From Sulfurimonas sp. (GTDB taxonomy: Bacteria > Campylobacterota > Campylobacteria > Campylobacterales > Sulfurimonadaceae): 64,000 nucleotides of DNA. The DNA is taken from NCBI RefSeq assembly GCF_014859695.1, contig NZ_JACUTS010000002.1, positions 23,328 to 87,327 on the forward strand. Direction: 5' to 3'. Shown here in pieces: positions 3,286-52,572 of the stretch. A program made the position numbers and the translations under genes. Every line of letters starts with the position of its first letter. The stretch's first letter is position 1. The notes beneath the pieces were generated by a model that worked only from the letters and a program-made list of their open reading frames with translations, searched no databases and was not told the origin of the DNA.

Positions 3286-3425
3286 GAGGCTTCCTTCTTT
3301 GGCTTCTTAAACATGAAACCAAGATAAAAATTTTCGCGATTATACCTTAAATAATGTTATATCTATGTAAAAGTAGTGTTATAATACATTTAAAAGCAAG
3401 AGAGTTGTTCATTTTTAGGAGTTAT

Positions 3426-4676
3426 ATGATTTATTATCCAAATAAACTAGATACTATTTTTGACAAACTAAAGAGTTACGGTATTAAGCCTATTATTGTT
3501 GGCGGGTATATTAGAGACTATCTTGCTAAGATTGAGTCAAAAGATATAGATATTGAAATTTACGGTATATCATCCTTTTCAGAGTTGCAAAATATACTAA
3601 AAGAGTTTGGCAGTGTTAATGTCGTAGGAAAAAGTTTTGGGGTTTGTAAACTATACTTTGAAGAGTACGATTTAGACTTCTCATTTCCAAGAATCGACAA
3701 CAAGGTTCAATCAGGACATCGAGGATTTGAGATATCTATAGACACGACACTTGATTTTGAAACCGCAACATCAAGAAGAGATTTTACGATGAACTCTGTA
3801 GGTTATGATGTTATAGAGAGAAAAATATTAGACCCATTCGGCGGAATTAAAGATTTTGAGAACAAAATACTTAAAGCCGTAAATTTAGAGAGTTTTGGCG
3901 AGGATCCTCTTAGAGTTTTAAGAGCTGTTCAATTTGCTACAAGATTTGAGCTTAAAATTGAAGATAATCTTTTTTCTATATGTAAAGATATGGTCTTAAG
4001 CGGAATGTTAAACGAGCTTCCAAAAGAGAGGATATTTGAGGAGATTAAAAAGCTTCTTCTTTATGCAAAAAAGCCCTCGCGCGGATTTGAACTCTTAAAA
4101 GAGTTTGGAAGTGGCTTGTATACTCAAAATATTTCCGTAATTGACGAGGTTGCAAAACAGCGAACAACAAACAATCAAACAAATATTGTTTTGATGTTAG
4201 CAGCTCTTTGTTATAACTTTTCTCAAAAAGAGGCACAAGATTTTATAGAAAAAATAACTCATGAAAAAGAGCTTTTACAAAGATCTCTTCTGCTTATAAA
4301 AAAACATAGTGAAGTAGAGACTCTTTATGAAAATAGCATAAACGATTATCACCTATACAAACTCGCTGCTGAAGTAAATATAGAAGAACTCCTTATTTTA
4401 AGCAGTTCAATCTACTTTGCAAATCACAATTCTGAAATTTACAGAGCCGGCGAAGAGATAAAAAAAAGAGCCAGAGAGCTCAATATACTCAACAAAAAAC
4501 TTCCAGCCATTTTAATGGGAAGAGATATTTTAAAGTTTGGAGTTGAGCCATCACCTCTCTTTTCAGAGATTTTGAACGAAGCTTATGAAGCTCAAATGCA
4601 TGGTAAATTTAAAAATTATGACGAGGCTTTTCTCTGGTTAAGAGAATATATATCTCACAAAGCAAGCTTTGTGTAG
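3426..4676 (+). CDS. CCA tRNA nucleotidyltransferase / poly(A) polymerase family protein
   Basis: GGYIRDYL, KDIDIEIYG, RRDFTMNSVGYD, DPFGG, EDPLRVLRAVQFATRF motifs; ORF track opens at 3354 but MIYYPNK at 3426 has a better start context (TTTAGGAGTTATATG). Confidence 0.85.
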   Translation: MIYYPNKLDTIFDKLKSYGIKPIIVGGYIRDYLAKIESKDIDIEIYGISSFSELQNILKEFGSVNVVGKSFGVCKLYFEEYDLDFSFPRIDNKVQSGHRGFEISIDTTLDFETATSRRDFTMNSVGYDVIERKILDPFGGIKDFENKILKAVNLESFGEDPLRVLRAVQFATRFELKIEDNLFSICKDMVLSGMLNELPKERIFEEIKKLLLYAKKPSRGFELLKEFGSGLYTQNISVIDEVAKQRTTNNQTNIVLMLAALCYNFSQKEAQDFIEKITHEKELLQRSLLLIKKHSEVETLYENSINDYHLYKLAAEVNIEELLILSSSIYFANHNSEIYRAGEEIKKRARELNILNKKLPAILMGRDILKFGVEPSPLFSEILNEAYEAQMHGKFKNYDEAFLWLREYISHKASFV

Positions 4677-4745
4677 CTTTAGGGGGTTGCAAGGGACATT
4701 TGTCCCTGCCACTAGAATGGGCTTTTGCTCATTCTGGTGTGTAAT
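4656..4745 (+). repeat. Interspersed triple-hairpin element, copy A
   Basis: CACAAAGC-AA-GCTTTGTG / TAGCTTTAGGGGGTTGCA / GGGACATTTGTCCC / TGC / CACTAGAATG...CATTCTGGTG / TGTAA; shares a core with copies at 8953-9043 and 52480-52567. Confidence 0.85.
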
Positions 4746-4748
4746 AAA

Positions 4749-5147
4749 CTAAAGTCTTGAACTGTCTATCTCTATAACAGTATGAACATTCCCTCTAGGA
4801 TTATAATCAGCCACTATTTTCATATATTTTGGTTTTAATTTTCTCTCTAAAACACTATATATCTCATTTGCACTATTTTCATGAGAGATATGTCTCTCTC
4901 TAAATGAGTTTATATAGAGCTTTACAGCTTTTAATTCTACAACCCACTCATCAGGCGTATACTCCAAATATATTGTTGCATAATCAGGATATCCGCTTCT
5001 AGGACAAAGACAAGAAAACTCCGGAAGTGTCATCTTTATAAGATAATTTCTCTTATGCTCATTTGGCCAAATTTCCAAATCTTTCTCTACATCAAACTCT
5101 TGAATAATTTTTTCACCGTATTTCATACTAACTCCTGTTATTTTCAT
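4749..5147 (-). CDS. queF: NADPH-dependent 7-cyano-7-deazaguanine reductase QueF
   Basis: CLCPRSGYPDYATIYLEYTPDEWVVELKAVKLYINSFRERHISHENSANEI is diagnostic of QueF. Confidence 0.95.
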   Translation of the reverse strand: MKITGVSMKYGEKIIQEFDVEKDLEIWPNEHKRNYLIKMTLPEFSCLCPRSGYPDYATIYLEYTPDEWVVELKAVKLYINSFRERHISHENSANEIYSVLERKLKPKYMKIVADYNPRGNVHTVIEIDSSRL

Positions 5148-8870: not shown

Positions 8871-8952
8871 TCAATACTCCATTATAACTTTGTTACATAA
8901 TTGGAGATATTTTATCTAATTTATTCTAAAAGAAAGTTTTATACTATCTGAT

Positions 8953-9043
8953 GTTACACACTAAAACGAACGTGTCCGTTATAGTGGCAGGGATAAATGT
9001 CCCTACAACCCCCTGAAGCTACAAAACGAAGTTTCTTTAGAAA
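8953..9043 (-). repeat. Interspersed triple-hairpin element, copy B
   Basis: Reverse complement reads ...GAAACTTCGTTTTGTAGCTTCAGGGGGTTGTAGGGACATTTATCCCTGCCACTATAACGGACACGTTCGTTTTAGTGTGTAACA. Confidence 0.85.
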
Positions 9044-9109
9044 AAAACAAGTTTTTTTGAGAACTATAAAGTATTTTTATGTATTTTTTGTAAAGGTGTA
9101 TTAAATCAG

Positions 9110-49914: not shown

Positions 49915-51379
49915 TTTTTGCTCCTCCTGTTTGAACGATTAAAAATGCCGCAGCGGTACCGATAACCATCTGCCATGAAAAACCAATCTCAAAGCCAAAG
50001 GTATAGGGCTGGAGCGCTAGAACTGTTACGAACCCGCCAAGAAGACCCCATAAAACACTTTTTTCATTTCCGCGTGATGTAAATATTGCCGAGAAGTATA
50101 CACCCAAAAGCCCCGTGTATGCAAATGCCATAACACCAAGCGCGAAGTTTATAAGTGATAAATCACCATGGCGCTGCCAGAAGTAGCTTAGTACCGCCAT
50201 AAGAGAGAGAAGAACGGCAAAGAAGAGCACTGCAAATCGTGAAGCTTTTACAAAGTGCTGCTCATCTGTTTTGCCCTGTTTTAATCTCCATGGTCTGTAG
50301 AGATCCTCAACCGCAACCGATGCCATGGCGCCAAGAACGGAGTTTGTGCTTGAGAGAGCTGCCGCAATTGCCCCGACTGTAACCAACCCTCTTAAACCCT
50401 CAGGCATCTCGTTTAGTATGTAGTACATAAAAATCGTAATTTTTTCGCCCTCAAAACTCTGTGTTACGCTGCTTTGCATGTAGAAGAGGTACAGAAGCGA
50501 GCCGATTGCCAAAAAAAGAAGTACGACGGGAATGGTAAGCAAAATAGAGACAATAAGTGATTTTGCCGCCTCTTTTTTGTTTTTGCATGCCAATACTCTT
50601 TGCGTCATATCCTGATCAAGTCCGAAGGCGGCGATGTTTAGAAGAAGCCAGCCGCCAAGAAGTCCGATAACGCTAAAGTTGCCATCAAACGATGTGTCTA
50701 AAAAGTTTAGTTTGTTCTGTTCGTTAAGCGTCTTTATAATCTCGATATGCTCAAGTGAGGTGTAGAGATAGATAAGAACAGCGACTCCCGCTCCGATGTA
50801 TGTCACGGCCTGAATAACATCGCTTAAAATGACGGAACGCACACCGCCGAAGTAGGTGTATGCAAGCGCTCCAAACATTAAAACCAAGATAGAGAGCGCA
50901 ACATGAAAAAAGAGTATATCGCTAAATAAAATCATCGATATTGCGAGCGCTCCGATGTAGAGTCTTGCTCCGCTGGCAAGCACTCGCCCTATAAGAAACA
51001 TCACACCTGCCTGCTTCTTTGCGCTCTGGCCATATCTGGCTTCTAGGAGTTCATAGACCGTAACCGCCTTCATCTCATAATATTTGGGAATCAAAACATA
51101 TGCTACAAAAACAACCGCTAAAAGCGCAGAGAAGTAAAACCCTATAAATGTAAAATCATGCGCATAAGAGTACTCGGGAGCACCCAAAAATGTGGCGGCT
51201 GATTGCGAGGTAGCCAAAACAGATAGAGCGACGGCAAACATCGGCATTGCGTGTGGAGATAGAAAGTAGTCCCGAGAAGAGTTGATTTTGGTGCGGCTTA
51301 AAATAGCCGACGTTATGGCAAGCATGATAAAATAGGAGGCAAATACAATCCAGTCTAGAGTTGAAAAAGCACTTTGCAT
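49907..51379 (-). CDS. Sodium:solute symporter (SSS family)
   Basis: ~13 TM; FGGVRSVILSDVIQAVTYIGAG; ALSSTNSVLGAMASVAVEDLYRPW. Confidence 0.92.
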   Translation of the reverse strand: MQSAFSTLDWIVFASYFIMLAITSAILSRTKINSSRDYFLSPHAMPMFAVALSVLATSQSAATFLGAPEYSYAHDFTFIGFYFSALLAVVFVAYVLIPKYYEMKAVTVYELLEARYGQSAKKQAGVMFLIGRVLASGARLYIGALAISMILFSDILFFHVALSILVLMFGALAYTYFGGVRSVILSDVIQAVTYIGAGVAVLIYLYTSLEHIEIIKTLNEQNKLNFLDTSFDGNFSVIGLLGGWLLLNIAAFGLDQDMTQRVLACKNKKEAAKSLIVSILLTIPVVLLFLAIGSLLYLFYMQSSVTQSFEGEKITIFMYYILNEMPEGLRGLVTVGAIAAALSSTNSVLGAMASVAVEDLYRPWRLKQGKTDEQHFVKASRFAVLFFAVLLSLMAVLSYFWQRHGDLSLINFALGVMAFAYTGLLGVYFSAIFTSRGNEKSVLWGLLGGFVTVLALQPYTFGFEIGFSWQMVIGTAAAFLIVQTGGAKNE

Positions 51380-52485
51380 TATTTCGTTTTTATCTTAGTG
51401 AACAACTGTTCTACTCTTGAGTTTGACTCTAAAATTCTACTTAGAGGGATAGCGCCATTTTTTACTTGAGCCAAAATAGTCTCTACAAGTTCATCATTGT
51501 CTTGATATGAGAGTTGGTTGCCAAAGAGCAGCATATCTACTCCAGAATTTATAGTTAGTGTCACAATCTGCTCGAGAGTGTAATGATTTGCAATTGCACC
51601 CATCTGCAAATCATCACTAACAATCACCCCTTCATAGCCTAGCTTATCACGCAGCAGCTCCGTATTTGTTTTGTATGAGAGCGTTGAGGGATAAAGCTCA
51701 TCAAGATTTGAGTTGAAGACATGAGCCGTCATTATCATGCGGGCATCTCCTGAGTGGATAAGTTCTATGTATGGCTCTAGCTCAACTTCGCTCCATGTCT
51801 TGCTGATATCTACAAATCCGTTATGCGAATCTCCAAGTGATGAACCGTGACCTGGAAAATGTTTTAAAACAGAGATAATATGTTTCTCCCTTAGTGCGTC
51901 CATAAATATCTTTGCATACTTTGCGACCTCTTTGGGCTCGCTTGAGTAGGAGCGTTTTAGTCCGACAATAACCCTGTTTTGAGGGTTGGTTGCCAAATCG
52001 ACTACCGGTGCAAAGTTGCAGTTGATGCCTGCATCTTTGAGCGTTTTTGCAAGATTGTCATAGACACGTTTCGTCATGTAGGCATCCATCTCAGAGACTA
52101 CTTTAGCGGAGGGTGTGGCTTCAAAACCGTATGCGGGCTTGAGTCTTGCAACTTTTCCTCCCTCTTGATCAACGGAGATTAGAAGCGGTTTTAGAGCGAA
52201 TGATTTGAGCGATGAGGTAAGAGTTTTCAGCTGCGAAGGAGAACTTATATTTTTTGTTTTGCTTCTGTCGTTAAAGTGGCGGTCAAATAGAATGACGCCT
52301 CCGAGGTAATATTTTTGCATCTGCTTTACGATTAGACTATCTTTAGTTACGCGCTCACTCTCAAAACCGACGATAAGCATCCTGCCAATCATCTTTTTAA
52401 GTTTCTCATTATTTGAAAGACTTTGGGATTGTGTTGCACTAAGAGTTACTATAGTGCTAATAAGTAGTGCAAAAAATCTCTTCAT
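51379..52485 (-). CDS. nagZ: GH3 beta-N-acetylglucosaminidase NagZ with signal peptide
   Basis: MKRFFALLISTIVTLSATQS leader; VDQEGGKVARLKP; LKHFPGHGSSLGDSHNG; VIVSDDLQMGAI. Confidence 0.93.
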   Translation of the reverse strand: MKRFFALLISTIVTLSATQSQSLSNNEKLKKMIGRMLIVGFESERVTKDSLIVKQMQKYYLGGVILFDRHFNDRSKTKNISSPSQLKTLTSSLKSFALKPLLISVDQEGGKVARLKPAYGFEATPSAKVVSEMDAYMTKRVYDNLAKTLKDAGINCNFAPVVDLATNPQNRVIVGLKRSYSSEPKEVAKYAKIFMDALREKHIISVLKHFPGHGSSLGDSHNGFVDISKTWSEVELEPYIELIHSGDARMIMTAHVFNSNLDELYPSTLSYKTNTELLRDKLGYEGVIVSDDLQMGAIANHYTLEQIVTLTINSGVDMLLFGNQLSYQDNDELVETILAQVKNGAIPLSRILESNSRVEQLFTKIKTK

Positions 52486-52567
52486 TTTAATGAAGTAGCT
52501 TTAGGGGGTTGTAGGGACACTAGTGTCCATGCCACTGTAATGGGCTTTGCTCATTACAGTGCGTAAC
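52480..52567 (+). repeat. Interspersed triple-hairpin element, copy C
   Basis: CTTCATT-TT-AATGAAG / TAGCTTTAGGGGGTTGTAG / GGACACTAGTGTCC / ATGC / CACTGTAATG...CATTACAGTG / CGTAAC. Confidence 0.85.
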
Positions 52568-52572
52568 ATCAG

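Follow-up and report, generated by a model that had tools for sequence, protein, structure and literature searches.

Structured repeats in the window

The window, by which we mean the whole 64,000-nucleotide stretch of the Sulfurimonas sp. genome that was analyzed (window coordinate = position on contig C155 minus 23327), contains three copies of a hairpin-rich interspersed repeat. These copies had been recognized in a sequence-only reading, and a covariance model trained on 74 related sequences places each of them within a few bases of the positions given there: copy A at 4652-4749 (+), copy B at 8949-9044 (-) and copy C at 52476-52571 (+), with E-values of 4e-18, 2.9e-18 and 7e-18, respectively. 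Copies A and C are among the sequences from which the model was built, so that their own scores lean high, while the count of other copies is independent. The spans first noted are correct as far as they go and form part of a larger element, of which hairpin 1, directly 5' of TAGCTT, and the left end had been missed.

The structured core of copy A, consisting of hairpin 1, a linker, hairpin 2 and hairpin 3, begins within the cca gene. Hairpin 1 (CACAAAG-CAAG-CTTTGTG, 4656-4673, +), identified by a hairpin search and from the reading frame, falls within the last cca codons, and the first bases of the linker supply the TAG stop (4674-4676, +) of the gene, as had been proposed; the open reading frame spans 3354-4676 and matches the PolyA_pol domain. 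The linker itself, TAGCTTTAGGGGGTTG (4674-4689, +), occupies near-invariant alignment columns. The left end of copy A is gone and its right end is degenerate (TGTAATAAACT). Copy B lies in the dnaN-gyrB gap as a whole element of 162 bp (8948-9109, -) with a degenerate left end (CTGATTTAATACACC), the right end GTGTAACATCAG and no clear target duplication. Its hairpin 1 contains an insertion of about 19 bp (TCTAAAGAAACTTCGTTTT, 9023-9041, -) that is not present in the orthologous copy of genome G005 (L018 vs L031). Copy C, which has an ortholog at locus L128, has lost its left end and retains an intact right end that matches GTGCGTAACATCAG exactly. It is antisense to both of its neighbors, a phosphoribosyltransferase gene and a glycoside hydrolase family 3 gene, and the ATG of the downstream glycoside hydrolase gene (51379-52485, -) sits in the complement of hairpin 1 (CTTCAT-TTTA-ATGAAG, 52480-52495, +; from the sequence, the open reading frame list and a hairpin search).

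Anatomy of the complete element

Complete copies, read together with their flanks, are bounded by terminal inverted repeats of the type CTGAYSTTACGCACT. They are noncoding and shorter than 300 bp, typically 142-145 bp and longer where they carry nested inserts. The left part consists of CTGACCTTACGCACTTTT and its inverted partner, which form hairpin 0, followed by TCTC and then by hairpin 1, a stem of about 7-8 pairs whose letters are very variable. Beyond hairpin 1 come TAGCTTYAGGGGGTTG, hairpin 2 (mostly AGGGAC/GTCCCT), TGCC, hairpin 3 and the right end, GTGCGTAACATCAG. The linkers TAGCTTYAGGGGGTTG and TGCC, which join hairpins 1-3, are near-invariant.

Several variants of this plan were observed. 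A long subfamily of 175-177 bp (L195-L203, L253, L259, L261, L265) has an extra hairpin, TAGGTATGCTAACCAATGGCATACTCCATGACA, within the linker, and the sequence of this hairpin is almost unchanged among the copies of this genome. Several copies carry a second mini-repeat in their hairpin arms, either TTCTAAAGAAACTTCGTTTT or a longer version with TTTTCACTTCGTGAAAACCGCATTAGCTTG (window 9023-9041, -, in copy B; L014, L015, L054, L058, L259, L260, L267); it resembles a small element of separate origin that has these hairpins as its target. The arms of hairpin 2 come in two versions, GGGAC/GTCCC and GCTGC/GCAGC (L040, L097, L123, L164 and the list of strict matches), and in some copies chimeras that mix one arm of each pair leave the stem broken.

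Covariation of the stems

Paired changes in the stems, which had been claimed from three copies, are borne out by the wider family. Across 74 copies, both partners change in 20 of 31 pairs, with a covariation score of 0.246 compared with 0.107 after shuffling and at most 0.106 with slid partners; 92.3% of cells pair as opposed to 83.6% when shuffled. Among 65 copies from other genera and families, in an alignment that was fitted to the model and is biased in its favor, two-sided changes are found at 24 of 31 pairs, with 335 double-change cells against 100 in shuffled alignments and a covariation score of 0.468 against 0.155. Covariation is strong in hairpins 1 and 3 and weaker in hairpin 2. 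Two further structures were considered and rejected: a fourth helix, or three-way junction, closed by GTTG/TAAC, whose four pairs show almost no two-sided change, and an integron attC site, relative to which the order GTTG...TAAC is, by reading, inverted.

Family size and distribution

The initial count of three copies proved wrong. At least 54 covariance-model matches (E <= 4e-5) are found in this genome of 2.37 Mb, in addition to fragments at contig ends, and the scan of the genome and its relatives yields many copies with strong covariation, not a few copies devoid of it. A 17-letter linker pattern occurs in 30 places in this genome and in none of the reversed control, and the terminal repeat has 119 matches, many of them at contig ends, compared with 7 for the reversed control. 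In this assembly (G000; L185-L194, L254-L258), many contigs end inside elements, so that both the number of copies and their local order are underestimated.

In the GTDB collection, the strict matches listed all come from Campylobacterota, and the genera named include Sulfurimonas, Sulfuricurvum, Sulfurospirillum and Sulfurovum. The covariance model detects the family in at least 18 of 200 genomes of the class, at least 9 of 47 genera and at least four families, a patchy distribution that is a lower bound given the strict filters of the class-wide scan. Carriage by viruses or plasmids was considered and rejected: IMG/VR gave no matches and the phage collection none at the sensitivity used, and a single copy was found on a plasmid, pSULKU01 of Sulfuricurvum kujiense. 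In a complete genome of another family (G250; L337-L339, L342, L351, L355), the core occurs in a different repeat unit, GCCCC...GGGGCAGACGCTCGCTTCGCTCGCGGG..., which is partly tandem and has no terminal repeats. The literature searched contains no description of the element, although the GTAG and CGTC repeats of Sulfurovum (PMC3733652) may overlap parts of it.

Mobility and the likely mobilizer

The repeat is a nonautonomous mobile element, a MITE, as the sequence-only reading had suggested, and it recurs in this genome and in related Campylobacterota with its structure conserved through compensatory stem changes. The family is characterized by IS701-type ends, 7-bp target duplications and strong covariation. 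Repeats of the CTGAYSTTACGCACT type are found at both ends of 48 copies, and 28 of these lie between 7-bp direct repeats that differ at no more than one position, compared with 7% in mismatched pairings; direct repeats of other lengths (5, 6 and 8-11 bp) occur in 0 to 4 of the 48 copies each. At the dnaN-gyrB junction, the site of copy B, the element is missing in most relatives in which the junction can be read, and genome G081 has an independent insertion there in the opposite orientation.

Some contig ends of G000 that carry the terminal repeat lead into other interiors, CTGACCTTACGCACCAAGGAATCAAAG... and CTGACCTTACGCACCTTTTAATTTCTGC..., and the CTGACCTTACGCACCTTTTAATTTCTGC interior codes for a transposase C-terminus; a Sulfurospirillum contig (G105) terminates in the same end. 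Ends of an insertion sequence (IS), CTGACCTTACGCACC..., are present both where contigs of G000 break off and where the Sulfurospirillum contig stops, while protein search of the fragmented G000 assembly found no intact IS body with exact CTGACCTTACGCACC ends. Decayed IS copies were identified in G016 (L213) and G069 (L215), the latter with the duplication TTAATAA. A search for the IS ends in viral contigs and plasmids returned nothing relevant. Intact relatives score above the NCBIfam IS701_2 cut-off of 250 (264.8, 376.1, 354.6 and 357.7). An intact IS of Polaromonas (L377) shares the terminal repeat CTGACCTTACGCA, with ends CTGACCTTACGCAGCC and the duplication TTACTAA; relatives in Thiothrix (ends CTGATGTTACGCAG, no clear duplication) and Moraxella (ends CTGAAGTTACGCA, 8-bp duplication) were also found. 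The closest intact relative found within Campylobacterota is an IS701-type element of 1.2 kb in G081 (L217 562-1765), which encodes a transposase of 355 amino acids and has ends CTGATGTTACGATAATCTAAAT, reading CTGATGTTACGATA, with no clear target duplication. The missing IS body in G000, the differing ends of L217 and the duplications that are unclear or 8 bp long in L217, Thiothrix and Moraxella count against an IS701-type mobilizer. Because of the shared ends, the decayed IS copies, the intact relatives and the duplication in Polaromonas, the MITE was most likely mobilized in trans by the DDE transposase of an IS701-type insertion sequence. A different MITE of 266 bp in G054 (L206 1500-1766) has the same CTGACCTTACGCACC ends and a TTATTAA duplication around another interior without the core, and so the core appears to be dispensable for movement.

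Core retention in copies lacking the left end

Among 174 distinct copies, 94 have no recognizable left end. In a set of 99 copies without a good left end, hairpin 1 almost always lies directly before TAGCTT, and its 5' arm takes 41 different forms; since a search by core favors intact cores, this class of copies with the core intact and the end missing is in part a matter of ascertainment. We therefore compared core and flanks at orthologous sites. Ten orthologous pairs were taken from twelve by flank similarity, before identities were computed, with both flanks matched. In three of them the core is more similar than either flank, with p-values that are indicative, given that they compare sites within one pair, take the sites as independent and leave coding constraint outside the model: copy C and its ortholog L128 (core 98.1%, flanks 75.4% and 80.7%, p 1.3e-8), L137/L147 (94.2% vs 75.7% and 77.7%, p 5.5e-6) and L155/L166 (95.3% vs 73.5% and 80.1%, p 7.1e-6). 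In L137/L147 both sides of the outer pair of hairpin 1 have changed, turning C-G into T-A, a compensatory substitution. The remaining seven pairs show no or weak excess, copy B among them (core 91.2%, flanks 90.1% and 87.0%). Homogenization to a family consensus fails to explain the identity of copy C and its ortholog, because both share unusual hairpins. The core thus appears to be conserved after loss of the left end, with support at three loci, and a core that stays intact for longer than the ends needed for jumping hints that the host may now use it.

A selfish role for the structure has to be weighed against this. If the core aided the spread of the MITE, through transposase access or host tolerance, and copies simply decayed afterwards, complete copies would be expected to hold both ends and the core together and to lack orientation bias, as they do, and the covariation, which is seen between subfamilies, would also fit. 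We nevertheless regard this explanation as rather unlikely, as the L206 MITE and the L215 IS remnant moved with the same ends and no core, which makes the core unnecessary for transposition, and cores that have lost the left end are better conserved than their flanks at the three orthologous loci.

Gene context and possible activity in transcripts

The copies are intergenic. Those without the left end are sense to codirectional neighbors in 24 cases and antisense in 24, and the orientation of complete copies is likewise unbiased. Hairpin 1 may fall in coding sequence: the copies at L137/L147 provide the end of the upstream reading frame, which we read as the C-terminus of a hypF-like protein, as copy A does for cca. 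A gene for the bacterial small SRP RNA (Rfam RF00169, 60.5 bits) lies near one copy (L007 791-888, -).

Clustering at the 3' ends of genes and in the gaps of convergent pairs (27 copies without the left end, vs 10 between divergent genes), together with hairpins that are palindromic on both strands, would suit a bidirectional terminator or an insulator that renders insertion beside genes harmless. However, a terminator scan for a G+C-rich stem followed by a T run found no terminator-like site at copies A, B or C, which disposes of ordinary terminators as the whole explanation of the three copies, and the invariant linkers are not accounted for by a classical terminator; we consider such a role unlikely. 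That the MITE carries a small RNA family with its own transcription is improbable. Conserved linkers and covarying stems do resemble a structured RNA, and TATAAT-like letters stand directly before TCTC in young copies, but copies without the left end retain only weak residual sequence at that place, and a promoter in front of hairpin 1 was rejected, as -10 boxes are not enriched in these copies. Rfam likewise gave no matches in the window at the gathering threshold and, at E <= 5 over 13 loci with copies, none at the elements.

The proposal that the repeat is a REP element moved by a RAYT (Y1) transposase, for which GTAG after hairpin 1 and before hairpin 2 in many copies and Y1_Tnp matches in 46 of 100 genomes of the genus, this one included, could be cited, is very hard to sustain in view of the 7-bp duplications, the terminal inverted repeats and the ends shared with an IS701-type DDE transposon. 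The supposed GTAG foot lies within the stem of hairpin 2 and is not conserved, with GCAA in its place in copy A and TGCAG in another family; elsewhere in the family tree of the element GAAG often replaces the GTAG that follows hairpin 1. The expected RAYT is also missing: genomes G021 and G067, both 99% complete, have six strict core matches each and no Y1 match, and the two Y1 genes of G000 (C91:1992 and C160:21975) have no copy close by, with the nearest element listed kilobases off.

Proposed history of the family

We consider it probable that the copies are old members of a large MITE family moved by an IS701-type transposase, whose core has been kept by selection and acts as a folded nucleic acid. 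As a first step, which is well supported, complete copies with CTGAYSTTACGCACT ends would have been moved in trans by the IS701-type DDE transposase of an insertion sequence with the same ends, duplicating 7 bp of a target of about TTANTAA, often at the stop codons of genes. In a second step, supported at three loci, the left end would decay after insertion, while the core of hairpin 1, linker, hairpin 2, TGCC and hairpin 3 would be held by purifying selection with compensatory changes in the stems. In a third step, we infer that the core functions in folded form, most likely by making hairpins in mRNA from either strand, at the 3' ends of genes and between cistrons, where it may shield mRNA ends or modulate the expression of neighboring genes; a role as a DNA structure would be the alternative. 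The unbiased orientation makes an oriented cis-regulatory RNA unlikely. More tentatively, and with considerable doubt, the core may represent a new class of structured RNA or single-stranded DNA of Campylobacterota, dispersed by IS701-type elements and repeatedly adopted by hosts, in which a host factor would read TAGCTTYAGGGGGTTG and TGCC.

Relation to known systems and significance

Like ERIC, NEMIS/Correia, RUP and YPAL, as listed in PMC3733652, the element is short, noncoding and intergenic, has inverted-repeat ends, is probably moved in trans and could fold in transcripts. Going by their description, it is set apart from them by its ends, its 7-bp duplication and its Campylobacterota hosts, and unlike those MITEs it has several covarying hairpins with linkers that hardly vary, and at orthologous loci its core persists longer than the ends. 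With insertion sequences of the IS701 family (NCBIfam NF049921, IS701_2) it shares the terminal repeat and, in the case of the Polaromonas IS, the 7-bp duplication, but it is noncoding and no similarity was seen beyond the ends. It resembles the GTAG REPs and their RAYTs (PMC3733652) in having palindromes by GTAG, a location at gene 3' ends and stem variation that stays complementary; it differs in that GTAG is unconserved, terminal inverted repeats and a target duplication are present, and there is no consistent association with Y1 genes.

MITEs of bacteria are often called folded and possibly functional, and evidence of selection site by site is seldom available. In this family, independent insertions are numerous, empty sites and orthologous copies exist, and the stems covary clearly, so that the domestication of MITE hairpins by the host becomes testable by setting the ends of a copy against its core, locus by locus. 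The analysis also puts a name to the likely mobilizer of a repeat family that is able to break Sulfurimonas genome assemblies.
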